Of a stretch of 18,864 nucleotides of DNA, positions 11,244 through 18,760 are shown in pieces. Made by a program: the position numbers and the translations under genes. How positions within the stretch are numbered: the first letter of the stretch is position 1; each line of letters begins with the position of its first letter. The DNA is from Desulfuromonas sp. SDB (GTDB lineage: Bacteria; SDB-A). The stretch covers positions 1 to 18,864 of the forward strand of contig LKUE01000239.1 in assembly GCA_001412365.1 (NCBI GenBank). Direction: 5' to 3'. The notes under the pieces were generated by a model. That model saw only the letters and a list, made by a program, of their open reading frames with translations. It was not told where the DNA came from and made no database searches.

Positions 11244-14200
11244 TAAAGATAAATCAAATTCATCAGATAGTGATTTTGAATCATTAGCTGAAGAGATGTC
11301 TTCTTCTTTACTGGAAGGATTTGAGGAAGCTGCCCGGAATGAAGTTCTTAAAGAACAGAATCAAAAACTTCAGCAGGAGATAGATGAATTAAATCTATCT
11401 CGAGATGATCTGATTAATGAAATTGAAAAATTAGAAAATTCCAGAAAGGATCTGGAAAAAGGTATAAATAAGTTAAACAAAAAAATTGATAACTTCGATC
11501 AGAAAAAACAGGAACTAGCCGACATCAATGATAAAATTGAAGAATTAAAAAAAGTTAAAGGGGATTTTTCATCACAAGTTCAATCTTTAGAACAAAGAAA
11601 ACAGCAAATTTTATCGGAAATTGAAGAATCTGAAAAAGAATATAATTCCCTTACCCAAGAACATCAGCAGGTAAGTTCTGATTTATCGGAACTTGAAGAA
11701 AAAATGGATCAATATTCCACTAAAATGATTGATCTGACCAATACAATAAGGGAAAAACAAGCGGATATTGAAGATAAAGCTACAGAATTGGAAGATTTAC
11801 AGGCAAATATTGCCGCTTTGCAGATTGATTCAGCTGGACTTGAAGATGAATTGGAAAACAAAAAAGCGGAAAAGCAGGAAATTGAATCATTGGTGGGCAG
11901 ACTAACTGATCAGAAAAATCAGCTGGAGTCAGCTATTTCTGAAAGTGAAAATCAGATAAGACAATTGGAAAGCTCTAAACAGCAGATTTCTGAAGAAATT
12001 GAAGAGATAAATGGAAGTTACCAGGCGGAGAAAGAAAAGTTAGATGAACTTAGAGAGTTAAAACAAGAATTAGAACAGGACATTGAAAGTTTAATTAGTC
12101 ATCAACAGGAAGTATCTGACACCGTTGAATACTTGAATATGGAGATAAGTGCTAAAAACCAGGAAAAAGATGAACTGGATGAGATTATCGTTAAATTAAA
12201 ACAGGAAAAAGATGAAAAAAATACGGAACTGCAAGAAACTTTTGACCAAATTGAAGGTTTAAAAATTGAAATTAGCCAGCTTCAGGAGCAACAGCAGCTC
12301 TTAAATGAAAATATCGGAGAACTGAAAAATAAAATTCGAGAAGATGAGGAAGAGAAGAGAAAGCAGCAAAGTGCTAGAGAAAAAATTGAACAGGAAATTA
12401 CACAGTTAACTGAACAGAGAGATGAGTTAAGAAACCAGGTACTGTCCATCCAGGATCAACTTCACCTTGAACAGGAAAATTATGAAGTTAAGCTTTCTGA
12501 TTACCAAAGCGAACTTCTGCAACAGGAATTAAGAATTGAAGAACAAAAAACTGATTTGCAGAGAATGGATACGGAAAAGGAAGGATTGGATAATGCGATT
12601 ACTGAACTGTCGGTTAAAATTGAAGAATATAAATTAGAAAATTCAAATCTCGAGCAGATAAAACAGGAGTTAGAACAAAATATTGCCCAATCAGAACAGT
12701 TAATTAGAGAACATCAAGATTCCATAAGATCTATGGATACCAGTATTACCAATCTACAACAACAGATAACTGATAAAACTGAAGAATTGGGCGGATTAAA
12801 TAGCAGCTTAAGTAAATTAAGAGATGAATTTGACCGGGAACAATCTGAAAACCAGCACAAAATATCTTCACTGCAAAGTGAAATTATGCAGCTGGAAATG
12901 AAAGTTACCGAAGATAATGCGGCAATTGATGATTTACAGGAGAAAAAGGAGCAATTGATTGAACAAGTAGATCATCTAACTAGCCAATCTGAAGAACTCA
13001 CTACAACTAAACAGGATTTAACTGAACAAATTGAGAATTTTCAACAAAAAATTGAACAGCTTTCCCAAAACAAAGATGAACTTGAACAGCAGATATACCA
13101 ACACCAGGAAAATATTGAAAATATGCAATCCACCATTCAGCAGAAAAATCAGGAAGCTGAAGATTTAGATAAACAAATTGAAGAAACTCAAAAATCATTA
13201 CAACAAAATCAGGAAAATTCTGAAAAAACAATTGCTGCCCTGCAAAGTGATATCCTCCAGTTGGAGATGAAACAGCAGGAAATAGAAGATTATATTGGTA
13301 AGATTGAACAGGAAAAAGAATCTCTGGAAAACCAATATGAAAACAGAAGTCAGGAACTGGAAAAATTAAACCAGGAAATAAAAGATCAGCAAAATGAAAT
13401 TGAGTTATTAAACCAGAATTATTCTGAAGTTGACCGGAAAAAACAAGATCTGGAATCTGAAATCAGTATTTATCAGCAGGAAATTGAGAACTATAACCGG
13501 ACTATTGAAAACCAAAATGAAGAAATTAAAAACCAACAGGAAAAGCTTGAGAATTTAAAACAGGAAATTGAAACAGAAAAAATAAATTCAGAACAGATGA
13601 TATCCCTTTATCATGCTGAAATTGAACAATTAGAACAAAGTATCCAACAACACAGCCAATCAATTGAACATCTGACTGTAAACAAACAGGATCTGGAAGC
13701 CAGTATAGATGAGCTTAAGGGAGTGGAACAGGATTTACTGGCTAAGAAAGATGAGTTTGAAAAAACCGAACAAGATTTAAATTTGCTTAACAGCGAATTA
13801 TCCGCAAAACAAGCGGAACTGCAGCAGTTGGTGGATAATTTTAAACAGGAAAAGGAAGACACTGAACAACAAATATCTGCATATCAGAGTGAAATACTTC
13901 AACTGGAAATGAAAATTGAAGAAGAAAAAGCAAATTTAGATGAGCTGTTAAATCAACAGAAAAAAATCGAGGAAAATATAAATTCTCTCCAGGGGGTAGA
14001 ACAGAAACTAACTCAAGCTCAACAGGACTATTCAGAACTAAACGATCAAATTGAAATAAAAAAATCAATAGAACATGAATTATCTCAAAAAATTGACGAA
14101 TTGGAAAATAGTCTAAAACAAGAACAGCAGCAGTATTCTAATGCTATTGAACAGTATCAGATGGAAGTAGCTCAGCTGGATACGGTTAAACAAGAATTAG

Positions 14201-16281
14201 ACAATCATATCAACCAATACCGGGAAGACCAAAAGCGTTTACAGGAAAATATAGATCTTAATCAGCAAAGATTAACTGATCTTCAGCAGGAGCTGCAATC
14301 TTATGAACAGAATAAGCAAACCATCTTTTCTCAACTGGATGACTTGAAGAACCAAAAAAGCGAAATAGAAAAACTAATAGATGACCATAAAAACCAGCTT
14401 GATTCAATTAATCAGGAATTATCTTCTAAAGAATCTGAAATATCAGAATTAACTGAGGAAATTAATTTTGTAAAGCAGGAAAGAGATCAAGAAAAAGAAA
14501 AATCCGAAAATGTTTTATCGGAATATCAAAGTGAAATACTGCAGGTTCAATTAAAAATTCAGGAAAATCAAGCAATCTTAGATGAACTTAACACGCAAAG
14601 AAGTCAGTTGTTACAGGAAATTCAGTCTAAGGTTTTAGAAAAAACAAGACTGGATGAATCCCTGGAAGAAAATCGAAAAATTATTAATAGCTTAACCGAT
14701 GATATCTCAGGTTATAAACAAGAGATTTCCACATTGGAAACCTCCATAATGGAAAAGGAAGACCAGTATAAAAACCTGGAAATAAACATTGATGAAAACA
14801 ATCAACTATTAGAACAACTGAGAAAGCAAACCCAGAATCTTGATGAGCAGTTAGACTATAAAAAACACCAATCTCTGCAGGCTATTGAAGAAATTGAAAA
14901 CCAGGTATTGACTAAACAGCAGCAGCTGCAAAAAGTAGAACAGGAACTACAGGAGAAAACTCAATATTTCGAAGACTTAAGAAATCAGATAGCCAATGCG
15001 GTTGCCAGCTTAAGAGATTTATCTGTGCAAATTGAGCGTGATGAAAAGATGAGTGAGAGGATTAGAGACCGTTTTAATCAAGCTAAAGATAAATTCATTA
15101 AGGCGAAAAAAGAACTTCATGATTTAAGCAAGCAGAAAGCGGAAAAATCTCAGGAACTAAAGCTGCTGGAAGACAATTATCAGCAGCTGCATCAATCTTT
15201 TCAGGAAGAGCAGAGTAAAGCTGAGGTTACTGAAAAGAAAATAAGTCAATTTAAGCAGGAAACCGAGCAGTTGATTTCACAAAGAAATAAATTAAATTCG
15301 GAAATAGAGACCTTAAAACAAGTTAAAAATGATATTGCCGTTCAATTTCAACCGGTTTTCAATGATATTAAGGACAATAAAGATCAGCAGAGATTGCTGT
15401 TTAAAAGCATCAAAGCATTAGAAGAGAAAATCACAGTTATTGCCAATGCCAAGATCAAACTGGATGATGATTTCAGCAAAATCAATCAGAAAGCACATCA
15501 GAATTCTGACGAAATCTTAAAAATGATGGATGCTTTGAATTCAATAAAAGAGGAATTGGTAAGAGGACAGAAAAAACATAAAGATTTAAACCGGATTAAC
15601 CAGAATCTTAAGCAGGATATAGAAGAACAAAGAAATAAGTATGAAAAAATACAAGACCAATCCGCAGTTGTCCAGCAGGAAATATTAAGCTTAAATGAAA
15701 ATAGGGATAAGGTAAAACAACAGATCAATAAATTAACCCAGGAAAGAGATAAATTATTATCGGACAGAGAAAATCGCTACAAACAAAGATTAGCTGGTTT
15801 AGAAAATAGGATTAATGAATTGGAAAATCAGAAAGGTTCTCTGGAAAATGAGATCAGGCAGGGATTAAAACAGAAAGAGCAGCTCCGGAATTTACAGAAG
15901 CAAAGAGATCAGTTGACTCAACAAGTTGAACAATATCATAAACTAGCCAAACAAAAAGATCAGTTGATTGAACAAGTTGATCAGCTGGAAAGACAAATTC
16001 ATACAAAGCAGCAGATAATTCAAAGCTCTTCTGCTGATGCTGAAAGAGATCAGGCAATACCTCCCTCTCCCCCCATAAGTTTTGGCGATCAGGATTTTTC
16101 CGCTAGCAATGTGGCTGAGTTAAAACAAACTGCGGACCATCTGAATCAGTTAATTAAAAAACTAAAATCAGAAAAGCAGAAACTTGAACAGGAAGTAGGA
16201 ACTTTAAAAGGAGAAGAAAAAAAATCTTCCACTAAAGATGTTGGGATTGAAGGTGATGAATCAATTAATTTTGGATTATAA
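11236..16281 (+). CDS. Giant repetitive coiled-coil protein, unrecognised family
   Basis: A 1681-residue protein that is almost wholly alpha-helical coiled coil: heptads of Leu/Ile amid Gln, Glu, Lys and Asn. It has no signal peptide, membrane segment, cysteine or tryptophan, and no proline before Pro1373. A Ser/Asp-rich head (about 1-20) precedes the rod. Residues 300-1219 form a tandem array of 123- and 91-residue repeats opening with a YQSEILQLEMK-like motif. A second coiled coil follows Pro1373, then a proline-rich break (1609-1614), a short helix and an acidic tail ending in FGL. TTG 11236 is chosen as start because GGGAG (11224-11228) sits 7 nt upstream; an upstream in-frame TTG at 11203 lacks one. 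It overlaps xer by 8 nt and the DUF4159 start by 1 nt. It resembles SMC or myosin rods only by composition; no ATPase head (Walker A) is present. Confidence 0.9.
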   Translation: MSDKDKSNSSDSDFESLAEEMSSSLLEGFEEAARNEVLKEQNQKLQQEIDELNLSRDDLINEIEKLENSRKDLEKGINKLNKKIDNFDQKKQELADINDKIEELKKVKGDFSSQVQSLEQRKQQILSEIEESEKEYNSLTQEHQQVSSDLSELEEKMDQYSTKMIDLTNTIREKQADIEDKATELEDLQANIAALQIDSAGLEDELENKKAEKQEIESLVGRLTDQKNQLESAISESENQIRQLESSKQQISEEIEEINGSYQAEKEKLDELRELKQELEQDIESLISHQQEVSDTVEYLNMEISAKNQEKDELDEIIVKLKQEKDEKNTELQETFDQIEGLKIEISQLQEQQQLLNENIGELKNKIREDEEEKRKQQSAREKIEQEITQLTEQRDELRNQVLSIQDQLHLEQENYEVKLSDYQSELLQQELRIEEQKTDLQRMDTEKEGLDNAITELSVKIEEYKLENSNLEQIKQELEQNIAQSEQLIREHQDSIRSMDTSITNLQQQITDKTEELGGLNSSLSKLRDEFDREQSENQHKISSLQSEIMQLEMKVTEDNAAIDDLQEKKEQLIEQVDHLTSQSEELTTTKQDLTEQIENFQQKIEQLSQNKDELEQQIYQHQENIENMQSTIQQKNQEAEDLDKQIEETQKSLQQNQENSEKTIAALQSDILQLEMKQQEIEDYIGKIEQEKESLENQYENRSQELEKLNQEIKDQQNEIELLNQNYSEVDRKKQDLESEISIYQQEIENYNRTIENQNEEIKNQQEKLENLKQEIETEKINSEQMISLYHAEIEQLEQSIQQHSQSIEHLTVNKQDLEASIDELKGVEQDLLAKKDEFEKTEQDLNLLNSELSAKQAELQQLVDNFKQEKEDTEQQISAYQSEILQLEMKIEEEKANLDELLNQQKKIEENINSLQGVEQKLTQAQQDYSELNDQIEIKKSIEHELSQKIDELENSLKQEQQQYSNAIEQYQMEVAQLDTVKQELDNHINQYREDQKRLQENIDLNQQRLTDLQQELQSYEQNKQTIFSQLDDLKNQKSEIEKLIDDHKNQLDSINQELSSKESEISELTEEINFVKQERDQEKEKSENVLSEYQSEILQVQLKIQENQAILDELNTQRSQLLQEIQSKVLEKTRLDESLEENRKIINSLTDDISGYKQEISTLETSIMEKEDQYKNLEINIDENNQLLEQLRKQTQNLDEQLDYKKHQSLQAIEEIENQVLTKQQQLQKVEQELQEKTQYFEDLRNQIANAVASLRDLSVQIERDEKMSERIRDRFNQAKDKFIKAKKELHDLSKQKAEKSQELKLLEDNYQQLHQSFQEEQSKAEVTEKKISQFKQETEQLISQRNKLNSEIETLKQVKNDIAVQFQPVFNDIKDNKDQQRLLFKSIKALEEKITVIANAKIKLDDDFSKINQKAHQNSDEILKMMDALNSIKEELVRGQKKHKDLNRINQNLKQDIEEQRNKYEKIQDQSAVVQQEILSLNENRDKVKQQINKLTQERDKLLSDRENRYKQRLAGLENRINELENQKGSLENEIRQGLKQKEQLRNLQKQRDQLTQQVEQYHKLAKQKDQLIEQVDQLERQIHTKQQIIQSSSADAERDQAIPPSPPISFGDQDFSASNVAELKQTADHLNQLIKKLKSEKQKLEQEVGTLKGEEKKSSTKDVGIEGDESINFGL
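12133..14892 (+). repeat. Array of 123/91-residue coiled-coil repeats within the giant protein gene
   Basis: Units start at 12133 (weak), 12502, 12871, 13240, 13609, 13882, 14155 and 14524. This gives spacings of 369, 369, 369, 369, 273, 273 and 369 nt, i.e. 123 or 91 codons. A further weak opening motif lies 369 nt after the last, at 14893 (IENQVLTKQ). Opening motifs include YQSELLQQELRIEE, LQSEIMQLEMKVTE, LQSDILQLEMKQQE, YHAEIEQLEQSI, YQSEILQLEMKIEE, YQMEVAQLDTV and YQSEILQVQLKIQE. Each unit tends to close with an Ile-Ser/Ala-rich end such as SENQHKISS or TEQQISA. Codons differ between copies, so the duplications are old. The two 91-residue units share GVEQ at residues 38-41 of the unit. 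Confidence 0.85.
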
Positions 16282-16907
16282 TGGCTTATTTAGTAATATT
16301 TTTATTGTTGTCAAATTCAAATTTTTACCTGTCCCGGCTGAAATATTCAGGTGGAGATTGGTATAATGACCCCTCCGCCCTGGTCAATCTAACCGAAGAA
16401 GTAAACCGCAGATTAAATTTAGATATCAGTACTCAGCAACAAATTGTGGATATCCACCAAGCCTGGACTCTGCAGGTGCCGTTTATCTATATGACCGGAC
16501 ATGGAGAAATTAACTTCACCTCCCAGGAACAGGAATATTTCCGGAAATATATTGAAGAGGGTGGCTTTGTGTATATTGATGATGATTATGGAATGGATGC
16601 GGAGGTTAGAGAAGAGCTCAGTAAGATATTCCCCCATCTGCCCCTTACTGAAATATCTTCTGATCATATCATCTATCATTGGCCCTACCAATTTCCCCAG
16701 GGACTGCCTAAAATCCACCAGCATGATCAGAAAGCCCCCCAGGGATGGGGAATTGAAATGGATGGAAGGTTAGTTGTATTTTACAGTTATGAAAGCAACA
16801 TTTCTGACGGATGGGTAAATCCTGATGTTCACGGAGACCCTGAGGAAATAAGAGAAGCTTCATTTAAAATGGGCGTCAATATAATTTGTTATGCCATGAC
16901 TCATTGA
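16281..16907 (+). CDS. DUF4159 family protein with possible signal peptide
   Basis: A 208-residue DUF4159 domain protein. The match covers SRLKYSGGDWYNDPSALVNL (18-37), FIYMTGHGEINFT (68-80), the EEGGFVYIDDDYGMD stretch (92-106), FPQGLPKIHQHDQKAPQGWG (138-157) and GRLVVFYSYE with SDGW (162-178). The end, MGVNIICYAMTH, is typical. DUF4159 is thought to have a class I glutamine-amidotransferase-like fold with no established activity. A hydrophobic stretch (3-10, then SNSNFYLS) right after the start could be an export signal or anchor, placing it outside the cytoplasm. The ATG shares its A with the preceding TAA (TAATG), so it probably relies on translational coupling. DUF4159 genes elsewhere often sit near MoxR/BatA-type genes, which are absent here. 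Confidence 0.85.
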   Translation: MAYLVIFLLLSNSNFYLSRLKYSGGDWYNDPSALVNLTEEVNRRLNLDISTQQQIVDIHQAWTLQVPFIYMTGHGEINFTSQEQEYFRKYIEEGGFVYIDDDYGMDAEVREELSKIFPHLPLTEISSDHIIYHWPYQFPQGLPKIHQHDQKAPQGWGIEMDGRLVVFYSYESNISDGWVNPDVHGDPEEIREASFKMGVNIICYAMTH

Positions 16908-16909
16908 TT

Positions 16910-18760
16910 ATGGAAGAAAAACAAAAAGATAATAATCAGGATAATATCAATCCTTTAATAAAAAGCAAATATACTCATATCCGACAATCCATAGAGAAAT
17001 ATCTTTCTTCCGATGAACTTTGGGCTATAGTAAAAGAAACTTTATACCGTTGGGAGAACAGCGATAAATCCACAGTGGTTTATTCCGAAGAAGTTCATGA
17101 ACAGGATGAAAAAGTGGGTATAATTTTTTCAGTGGCTTCCAGTGATTGGGCAGGTATGTCCGAGGCATGTGTGGGGGTAGTCCACTCCCGGGGATTTAAT
17201 GTTTGGAGACTGGCTGGTTTTGTGGTGGAAGCTGAAAAAAGAATAGCTCTCCAGGAAGTAGGTATGATCATCATGTATATCAAACCTAAAGATCCAAATC
17301 TACAGGAAGAATTATTTGAAGCCAGGGATAGTTTGTCCAGAATGCTGGTTTATTCTTCTACCGGGGGGGGGACCGGAGCCGCCGCCTTAGTTGCTTCAGA
17401 ATCTAGCAAGGTGCAAAAAATGGCTATGGTTATAAAATATATTGAAAGAGCGCTCCAAGATGACCCCAAGCTGAGCAAAGATATTTCAGGACCAGAAGGA
17501 GAAACTGCAAAATTTTTTGCCAGCAGGTCCACCGAATATATAACGGATAGAATGGTGAAGCAGCTGGGTGATCAGATAATTACCAATTACAAATTGATTG
17601 ACCAGGTTCGCAAAAGCGGAAAAGGAGAGATATTTATTGAAAACATGACCAACCGTAAGGAGGAATTAACCTGTATTACCGTAGTAGGTAAACAGGAAAT
17701 GTTTTCTGTGGATGAAGTATTCCTTCGCCTGGATCATGCCCTTCCTAAATATAAGCGGAAATATGACAAGACTTTTACTACCCGGGACGGGATTAAAATA
17801 ATTAGGTTGGAGATCACTAATCAGTGGGACGAATTTTATTTAGGAGATGAACTGGAAAGGATAAAGAGAACTCTGATCAAGTGTGTCAATAAAATTACGT
17901 CTTTTGATGAAGCTATTTTATCTAAAAATATTTTACCGGGAGGGCAGGAGCATTATGCCCGGGCAATTATTCCCATGTTGATCAGAGAATATGAAAATTC
18001 AAAAATTACACAAGTTTACATGGCTCAGTCCTATTCCAATGAGTTTTTTATGTCCATGAAATTATTAATTGTCACCGCAAAAGTTGAACAGGGAAAAGAA
18101 TTGGAATTAAAAATATTAGAGGGGATTGAAAATATTAACGGATTTTTTGTCGCCAACTGTATGCCTCCCCGGACCTACGGTTCATACTTTGTGTATAATT
18201 TCGATATTCAGGCAGATTTAGATATCTTCACTTCAAAATATGAAGTAATTAACAAGTTAAAGGAATATTTATCTCTGGAATTTAAAAATTACCGGGATTT
18301 TGATGAAGGGATGAGAAGATCCATGCTGTCCAAACTAGAAGAAATAAAGAGAGATTTAGCTGATTATGATCAGACTACGGTGGAGGAGATTTATTATTTC
18401 TTAGACGGATTTCACCGATACCAAGCGGGAGTAGACGAATTGGTCTTGGAAATTAAAGCGGGAATAGAATCATTGGACAAAGCCAGATCAAATATTGACA
18501 AATCCGCTCTGGAGATTGTGGATATTCCTTCTCGAACCGGTGACTATATTAAATCTACGGTTATTGCCATGGTAACCAAAGACCGGATTAAAATTAAAAA
18601 ATGCGTTTCTGAGTTGATGAAGAGGTTTGAATTAACCCTGTGCAAGGTGAATGAAGATCCCTTTATCTTAATTATCTTGAATATAACCAGTCAGGGTAAG
18701 GGCTTAAACAATGATGAGATACAAACCATCTTGGATTACTGCCAGGTGACTGTCCACTGA
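16910..18760 (+). CDS. Unrecognised 616-residue protein with ACT-like segments
   Basis: No family is recognised with certainty. Residues 70-126 look like an ACT regulatory domain: a hydrophobic strand FSVASSDWAGM, a helix SEACVGVVHSRGF, then NVWRLAGFVVE and a strand VGMIIMYIKP. Three weaker strand-helix-strand segments of similar layout lie near 253-303, 385-436 and 550-594. ACT repeats occur in GlnD and in large NAD-glutamate dehydrogenases, but no nucleotidyltransferase or dehydrogenase domain is present. A TGGGTGAA loop (151-158) is encoded by a run of nine G. Residues 465-540 are charged and probably helical. There are no membrane segments. ATG 16910 is 2 nt after the DUF4159 stop, without its own strong Shine-Dalgarno; an upstream in-frame TTG (16886) would overlap it. 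It is last in the five-gene run. Confidence 0.85.
   Translation: MEEKQKDNNQDNINPLIKSKYTHIRQSIEKYLSSDELWAIVKETLYRWENSDKSTVVYSEEVHEQDEKVGIIFSVASSDWAGMSEACVGVVHSRGFNVWRLAGFVVEAEKRIALQEVGMIIMYIKPKDPNLQEELFEARDSLSRMLVYSSTGGGTGAAALVASESSKVQKMAMVIKYIERALQDDPKLSKDISGPEGETAKFFASRSTEYITDRMVKQLGDQIITNYKLIDQVRKSGKGEIFIENMTNRKEELTCITVVGKQEMFSVDEVFLRLDHALPKYKRKYDKTFTTRDGIKIIRLEITNQWDEFYLGDELERIKRTLIKCVNKITSFDEAILSKNILPGGQEHYARAIIPMLIREYENSKITQVYMAQSYSNEFFMSMKLLIVTAKVEQGKELELKILEGIENINGFFVANCMPPRTYGSYFVYNFDIQADLDIFTSKYEVINKLKEYLSLEFKNYRDFDEGMRRSMLSKLEEIKRDLADYDQTTVEEIYYFLDGFHRYQAGVDELVLEIKAGIESLDKARSNIDKSALEIVDIPSRTGDYIKSTVIAMVTKDRIKIKKCVSELMKRFELTLCKVNEDPFILIILNITSQGKGLNNDEIQTILDYCQVTVH

Follow-up and report, generated by a model that had tools for sequence, protein, structure and literature searches.

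We identified an internally repeated coiled-coil rod of 1681 amino acids, encoded by a single open reading frame with a TTG start within the window (the whole stretch of 18,864 nucleotides that was analysed), in which copies of a YQSEILQLEMK-type motif recur at intervals of 123 or 91 residues, each with a 4-residue stutter (hendecad) just ahead of it (Table 1). The repeating module is real, its build is unusual and looks to have been selected, and the sequence is best read as a new protein family of a known kind.

Seven copies of the motif begin at residues 423, 546, 669, 792, 883, 974 and 1097, giving intervals of 123, 123, 123, 91, 91 and 123 residues. These positions and spacings, reported by the first-pass annotation, were recovered by a motif search given no spacing information. 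Each copy, when held out singly, was the top of ~1650 positions scored with a profile from the other six, and the leave-one-out score of 179 lay above all 100 heptad-class-preserving shuffles (mean 116, sd 10, maximum 151). Self-comparison of the protein gave among its leading offsets 91 (z 5.0) and 123 (z 3.8) together with 337, 428, 551, 305 and 214, which are sums of 91s and 123s; against a null of shuffling inside heptad classes, with a 95% level of the maximum of 3.83, only the offset of 91 is significant alone. Pairwise identity among the seven copies is 19-42%. No DNA tandem repeat was found and the longest exact DNA repeat is 15 bases; since the DNA copies have diverged to this extent a misassembly through collapsed repeats is unlikely. 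Two weaker copies had also been listed, at residues 300 and 1220. The former was not borne out, having neither motif nor, in the register fit, a stutter at that boundary, while at the latter the stutter is present and the motif has been lost.

Table 1 Features of the coiled-coil gene and its downstream neighbours, with positions in the window
Feature	Position	Strand	Remark
Long coiled-coil protein gene, 1681 aa	11236..16281	+	TTG lies within 3′ end of xerC-like gene
Conserved N-terminal peptide FESLAEEMSSSLLEGFEEA, residues 14-32	11275..11331	+	EMSSSL identical in two genera
N-terminal rod, residues 33-408	11332..12459	+	Heptads almost unbroken from residue 91
Motif block 1, YQSELLQQELR, Tyr 423	12442..12612	+	Conserved in L028 and L029 (residue 422/423)
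Stutter 1, LHLEQENYEVKL, residues 409-420	12460..12495	+	Stutter also in G001 and G003
Motif block 2, LQSEIMQLEMK, 546	12811..12981	+	Motif searches
Stutter 2, residues 532-543	12829..12864	+	Register fit
Motif block 3, LQSDILQLEMK, 669	13180..13350	+	Motif searches
Stutter 3, residues 655-666	13198..13233	+	Register fit
Motif block 4, YHAEIEQLEQS, 792; opens first 91-residue unit	13549..13719	+	Motif searches
Stutter 4, residues 778-789	13567..13602	+	Register fit
Joint LKGVEQ, compensating stammer, 32-residue loss site	13714..13731	+	Register fit and unit alignment
Motif block 5, YQSEILQLEMK, 883; opens second 91-residue unit	13822..13992	+	Motif searches
Stutter 5, residues 869-880, weakest of eight	13840..13875	+	Register fit
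Joint LQGVEQ, compensating stammer, 91 residues past first joint	13987..14004	+	Register fit and unit alignment
Motif block 6, YQMEVAQLDTV, 974	14095..14265	+	Motif searches
Stutter 6, residues 960-971	14113..14148	+	Register fit
Motif block 7, YQSEILQVQLK, 1097	14464..14634	+	Motif searches
Stutter 7, residues 1083-1094	14482..14517	+	Register fit
Stutter 8, residues 1206-1217; motif lost afterwards (1220)	14851..14886	+	Register fit
Distal rod, residues 1218-1507	14887..15756	+	Unbroken heptads; conserved LRDLS at 1259
Conserved C-terminal tail (ISFGD ... DESINFGL)	16075..16278	+	Comparison with relatives
DUF4159 protein	16281..16907	+	E 3.5e-59 (Pfam); overlaps stop of rod gene
Stand-alone protein of four ACT-like domains	16904..18760	+	Resembles regulatory N-terminal part of 180-kDa glutamate dehydrogenase

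The register of the rod, followed by dynamic programming and by the phase of the 3.5-residue signal, makes about one step per long unit, in keeping with the earlier claim that 123 residues hold a single 4-residue stutter. Allowing such a stutter improved the fit by 4.5-13.0 at the eight boundaries from 423 to 1220; at 67 places of the rod that lie beyond the array, the gain was never above 1.8. The limits of the hendecads were set by eye on the heptad pattern, the fit alone placing each step to about one or two heptads. Their cores are polar, with Glu/Asn/Lys followed by Gln/Lys and then by Tyr/Asn/Ser/Thr. The 91-residue units had been taken for 13 plain heptads, which proved incorrect: they keep the stutter, and it is offset by a 3-residue stammer at the sequence LxGVEQ (residues 827-832 and 918-923). 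Both short units match the long unit best with 32 residues removed at +33 to +38 from the first residue of the motif, and LxGVEQ lies at this deletion point in each. The simplest history would be that a unit was shortened by a single deletion and then duplicated in this form. The protein offers a clean natural example of a rod in which a single segment is repeated and each unit contains one register break, and of a shortened unit that keeps the net register.

Ile (37%), Leu (17%) and Lys (12%) lead at position a of the heptads and Leu (46%) at position d, with Ala at 2-3% in both; the Ile-rich a, the Leu-rich d and the Lys at a indicate that the rod is probably dimeric. A reading by eye found no signal-like or membrane segment in the protein, which suggests a cytoplasmic location. 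With ~1470 residues in helix and 0.1485 nm per residue, a length of ~220 nm is predicted. We picture a cytoplasmic rod of this length, most likely parallel and two-stranded, serving as a scaffold, filament or tether with regularly spaced underwound sites, and consider the chances for and against this account evenly balanced. Conserved short terminal peptides would hold both ends of the rod. Its middle would have lengthened as a 123-residue segment was duplicated in tandem, and one of the units would have shed 32 residues before being copied again. In every unit the polar-core hendecad and the YQSEILQLEMK-type helix that follows it may form a locally underwound spot that is more flexible or accessible. 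Successive spots would lie ~18.3 nm apart, or 13.5 nm where the unit is short, and they could be hinges or docking sites under selection. The scaffold role and the selection on the sites are what we infer from this arrangement. A further step would make the rod a molecular ruler of this phylum: its underwound sites, set evenly ~18 nm apart, would act as docking points or hinges and so position several copies of a partner along the inside of the cell. We hold this to be unlikely.

The phylum was represented by four genomes. In two of them, G001 and G003, which belong to another genus, the rod gene is flanked by the same neighbours and each copy is split across two contigs. In the N-terminal halves a stutter precedes the first motif, which falls at residue 423 in one relative and 422 in the other, and the N-terminal rods of the two align without gaps at 42% identity; the ungapped fit of the N-terminal rod in the window to these relatives is likewise best at one single shift. 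In the C-terminal half of the G003 gene the phase of the 3.5-residue signal identified two stutters ~116 residues apart, matching the window's stutters 7 and 8 in position to within ~25 residues. The motif profile did not detect the motif in these last two units, although the stutters persist, so the motif is not required everywhere. Self-offset comparison of the relatives' fragments gave z(123) near zero or negative, and z(91) reached 2.5 in the C-terminal half of G003, under the 95% level of the null. Contigs L023, L024, L028 and L029 end within the coiled-coil gene, at points inside the array or past it, leaving the middle of the array unassembled in both relatives, and the comparison of spacing covered the position of the first motif and the stutters at the two ends of the array; the facing contig ends have no 15-mers in common over their last 400 bases, and a DNA search for the missing middle of the G003 gene did not find it. 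Searches of G002 found no assembled copy of the rod gene. The terminal peptides and the motif block, were each searched against 386 genomes; matches outside the family were all weak, with E of 2e-5 to 9e-4, and we read them as generic coiled coil. As no homologue was found beyond one family in the 386 genomes, a function cannot be borrowed from a relative.

The period could instead be a record of duplication history only, the copies keeping their length because coiled coils rarely tolerate insertions and the period itself having no function. Although we hold this to be less likely, several observations agree with it. The non-repetitive N-terminal rod is also constant in length across genera, as the position of the first motif and the ungapped alignment indicate; rods keep their length in any case, so that exact spacing by itself proves little. 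Two units tolerated the 32-residue loss, and no charge period is present at 91 or 123. Decay under neutrality should however be even along the unit, whereas the five long units that were compared resemble each other strongly between about -20 and +30 relative to the motif, with a peak z of 6.2 at the motif, and show null similarity between about +33 and +63. The stutter also outlives the lost motif at 1220 and precedes the first motif in the relatives. Conservation concentrated at the motif and none mid-unit makes regularly spaced sites plausible, and the pattern within the units suggests selection on stutter and motif rather than mere duplication history. The first-pass annotation had put forward a structural period, and of its two suggestions that of spaced sites gains from this conservation, while axial staggering of the myosin type is not supported, charge complementarity giving no signal at staggers of 91, 123, 214 or 246. 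The rod provides a test case in which the stutters of a long coiled coil can be asked to show if they work as sites or are scars left by duplication.

No described family fits the protein, as had been supposed at the outset: Pfam and NCBIfam matches all fall under their curated cut-offs and there is no PDB sequence match. Like crescentin and intermediate filaments (PMC10873595), it has a long, here probably parallel, coiled coil that contains a stutter and is flanked by short non-coil segments, and removal of the crescentin stutter interferes with cell curving (PMC10873595). A weak match to Pfam Filament (PF00038) also speaks for a filament of this type, in which the stutters set the lateral contacts of the rods and produce a regular stagger. 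That match reaches 23.7 bits against a cut-off of 40, and crescentin and intermediate filaments have one stutter in a far shorter rod, whereas here there are eight, evenly set, in an internally repeated rod about four times longer and with no charge signal for a stagger; we regard such a filament as unlikely. Scy is a long rod built on hendecads (PMC9858780), and very long bacterial coiled-coil rods using hendecads are common to Scy, FilP (DivIVA-like) and the protein described here (PMC9858780). Scy however is made up almost wholly of hendecads, its core is rich in alanine and its N-terminus carries a DivIVA-like motif, while in the rod described here single hendecads stand amid long heptad runs, Ala amounts to 3% (2-3% at a and d) and Pfam gave no DivIVA match at E up to 5. 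In myosin II rods there are skip residues, and the charges repeat every 196 residues (PMC7365473). Breaks of the heptad along the rod are shared with them, but here these are 4-residue stutters and not single skips, a charge repeat at the module length and a motor are absent, and no myosin tail match was returned by Pfam.

An arm like that of SMC or Rad50, or another ATPase-driven coiled coil, is very improbable: the match of the coil to SMC and Rad50 models of NCBIfam is one of composition (SMC_prok_B, 205 bits, cut-off 567) and the rod gene overlaps a xerC-like recombinase gene, but every match is under its cut-off and the frame has no ATPase head. Chance copies of a motif within a low-complexity coiled coil, for which the richness of the whole in Glu, Gln, Lys, Leu and Ile might speak, can be dismissed, since the spaced motifs are more alike than random segments of the same composition, their score exceeding that of every shuffle, and the five best shuffles show no regular spacing. 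On the scaffold reading, the rod would be a cytoskeletal or scaffold protein that has not been described before, from a phylum represented here by only four genomes.

The rod gene lies in a compact run on the forward strand consisting, in order, of genes for a beta-CASP nuclease and the xerC-like recombinase, the coiled-coil gene, a DUF4159 gene and a gene for an ACT-like protein, successive genes overlapping from the xerC-like recombinase onward. In the relatives an ATG occupies the position equivalent to the TTG start in the window. Ahead of the compact run in the window are housekeeping genes that we take, from reading the sequence, to be rnpA, yidC, jag and mnmE, with murJ on the opposite strand. 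Both relatives have between mnmE and murJ a membrane protein, by look an EamA-type transporter (L028 1455-2339 and L029 2062-2916), that is missing from the window. The DUF4159 neighbour is retained in G001 and G003, and the C-terminus of the rod protein is conserved as INF[SG]L. Neither the conserved ends of the rod nor the ACT-like neighbour names a function for it. The ACT-like protein resembles the regulatory part of the 180-kDa glutamate dehydrogenase in 7jsr (E 8.9e-11, with a model whose mean pLDDT is 70 and a low global fit), and the catalytic part of that enzyme is absent from it. A Tubulin/FtsZ identity for this protein, considered from a GGGTG string (Pfam Tubulin E 0.11), was rejected, the fold being that of four ACT-like domains; the string that mimics the tubulin signature occurs only in this genome and is missing from the relatives. 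A distant relative of the ACT-like protein is present in a Delongbacteria genome (L031).
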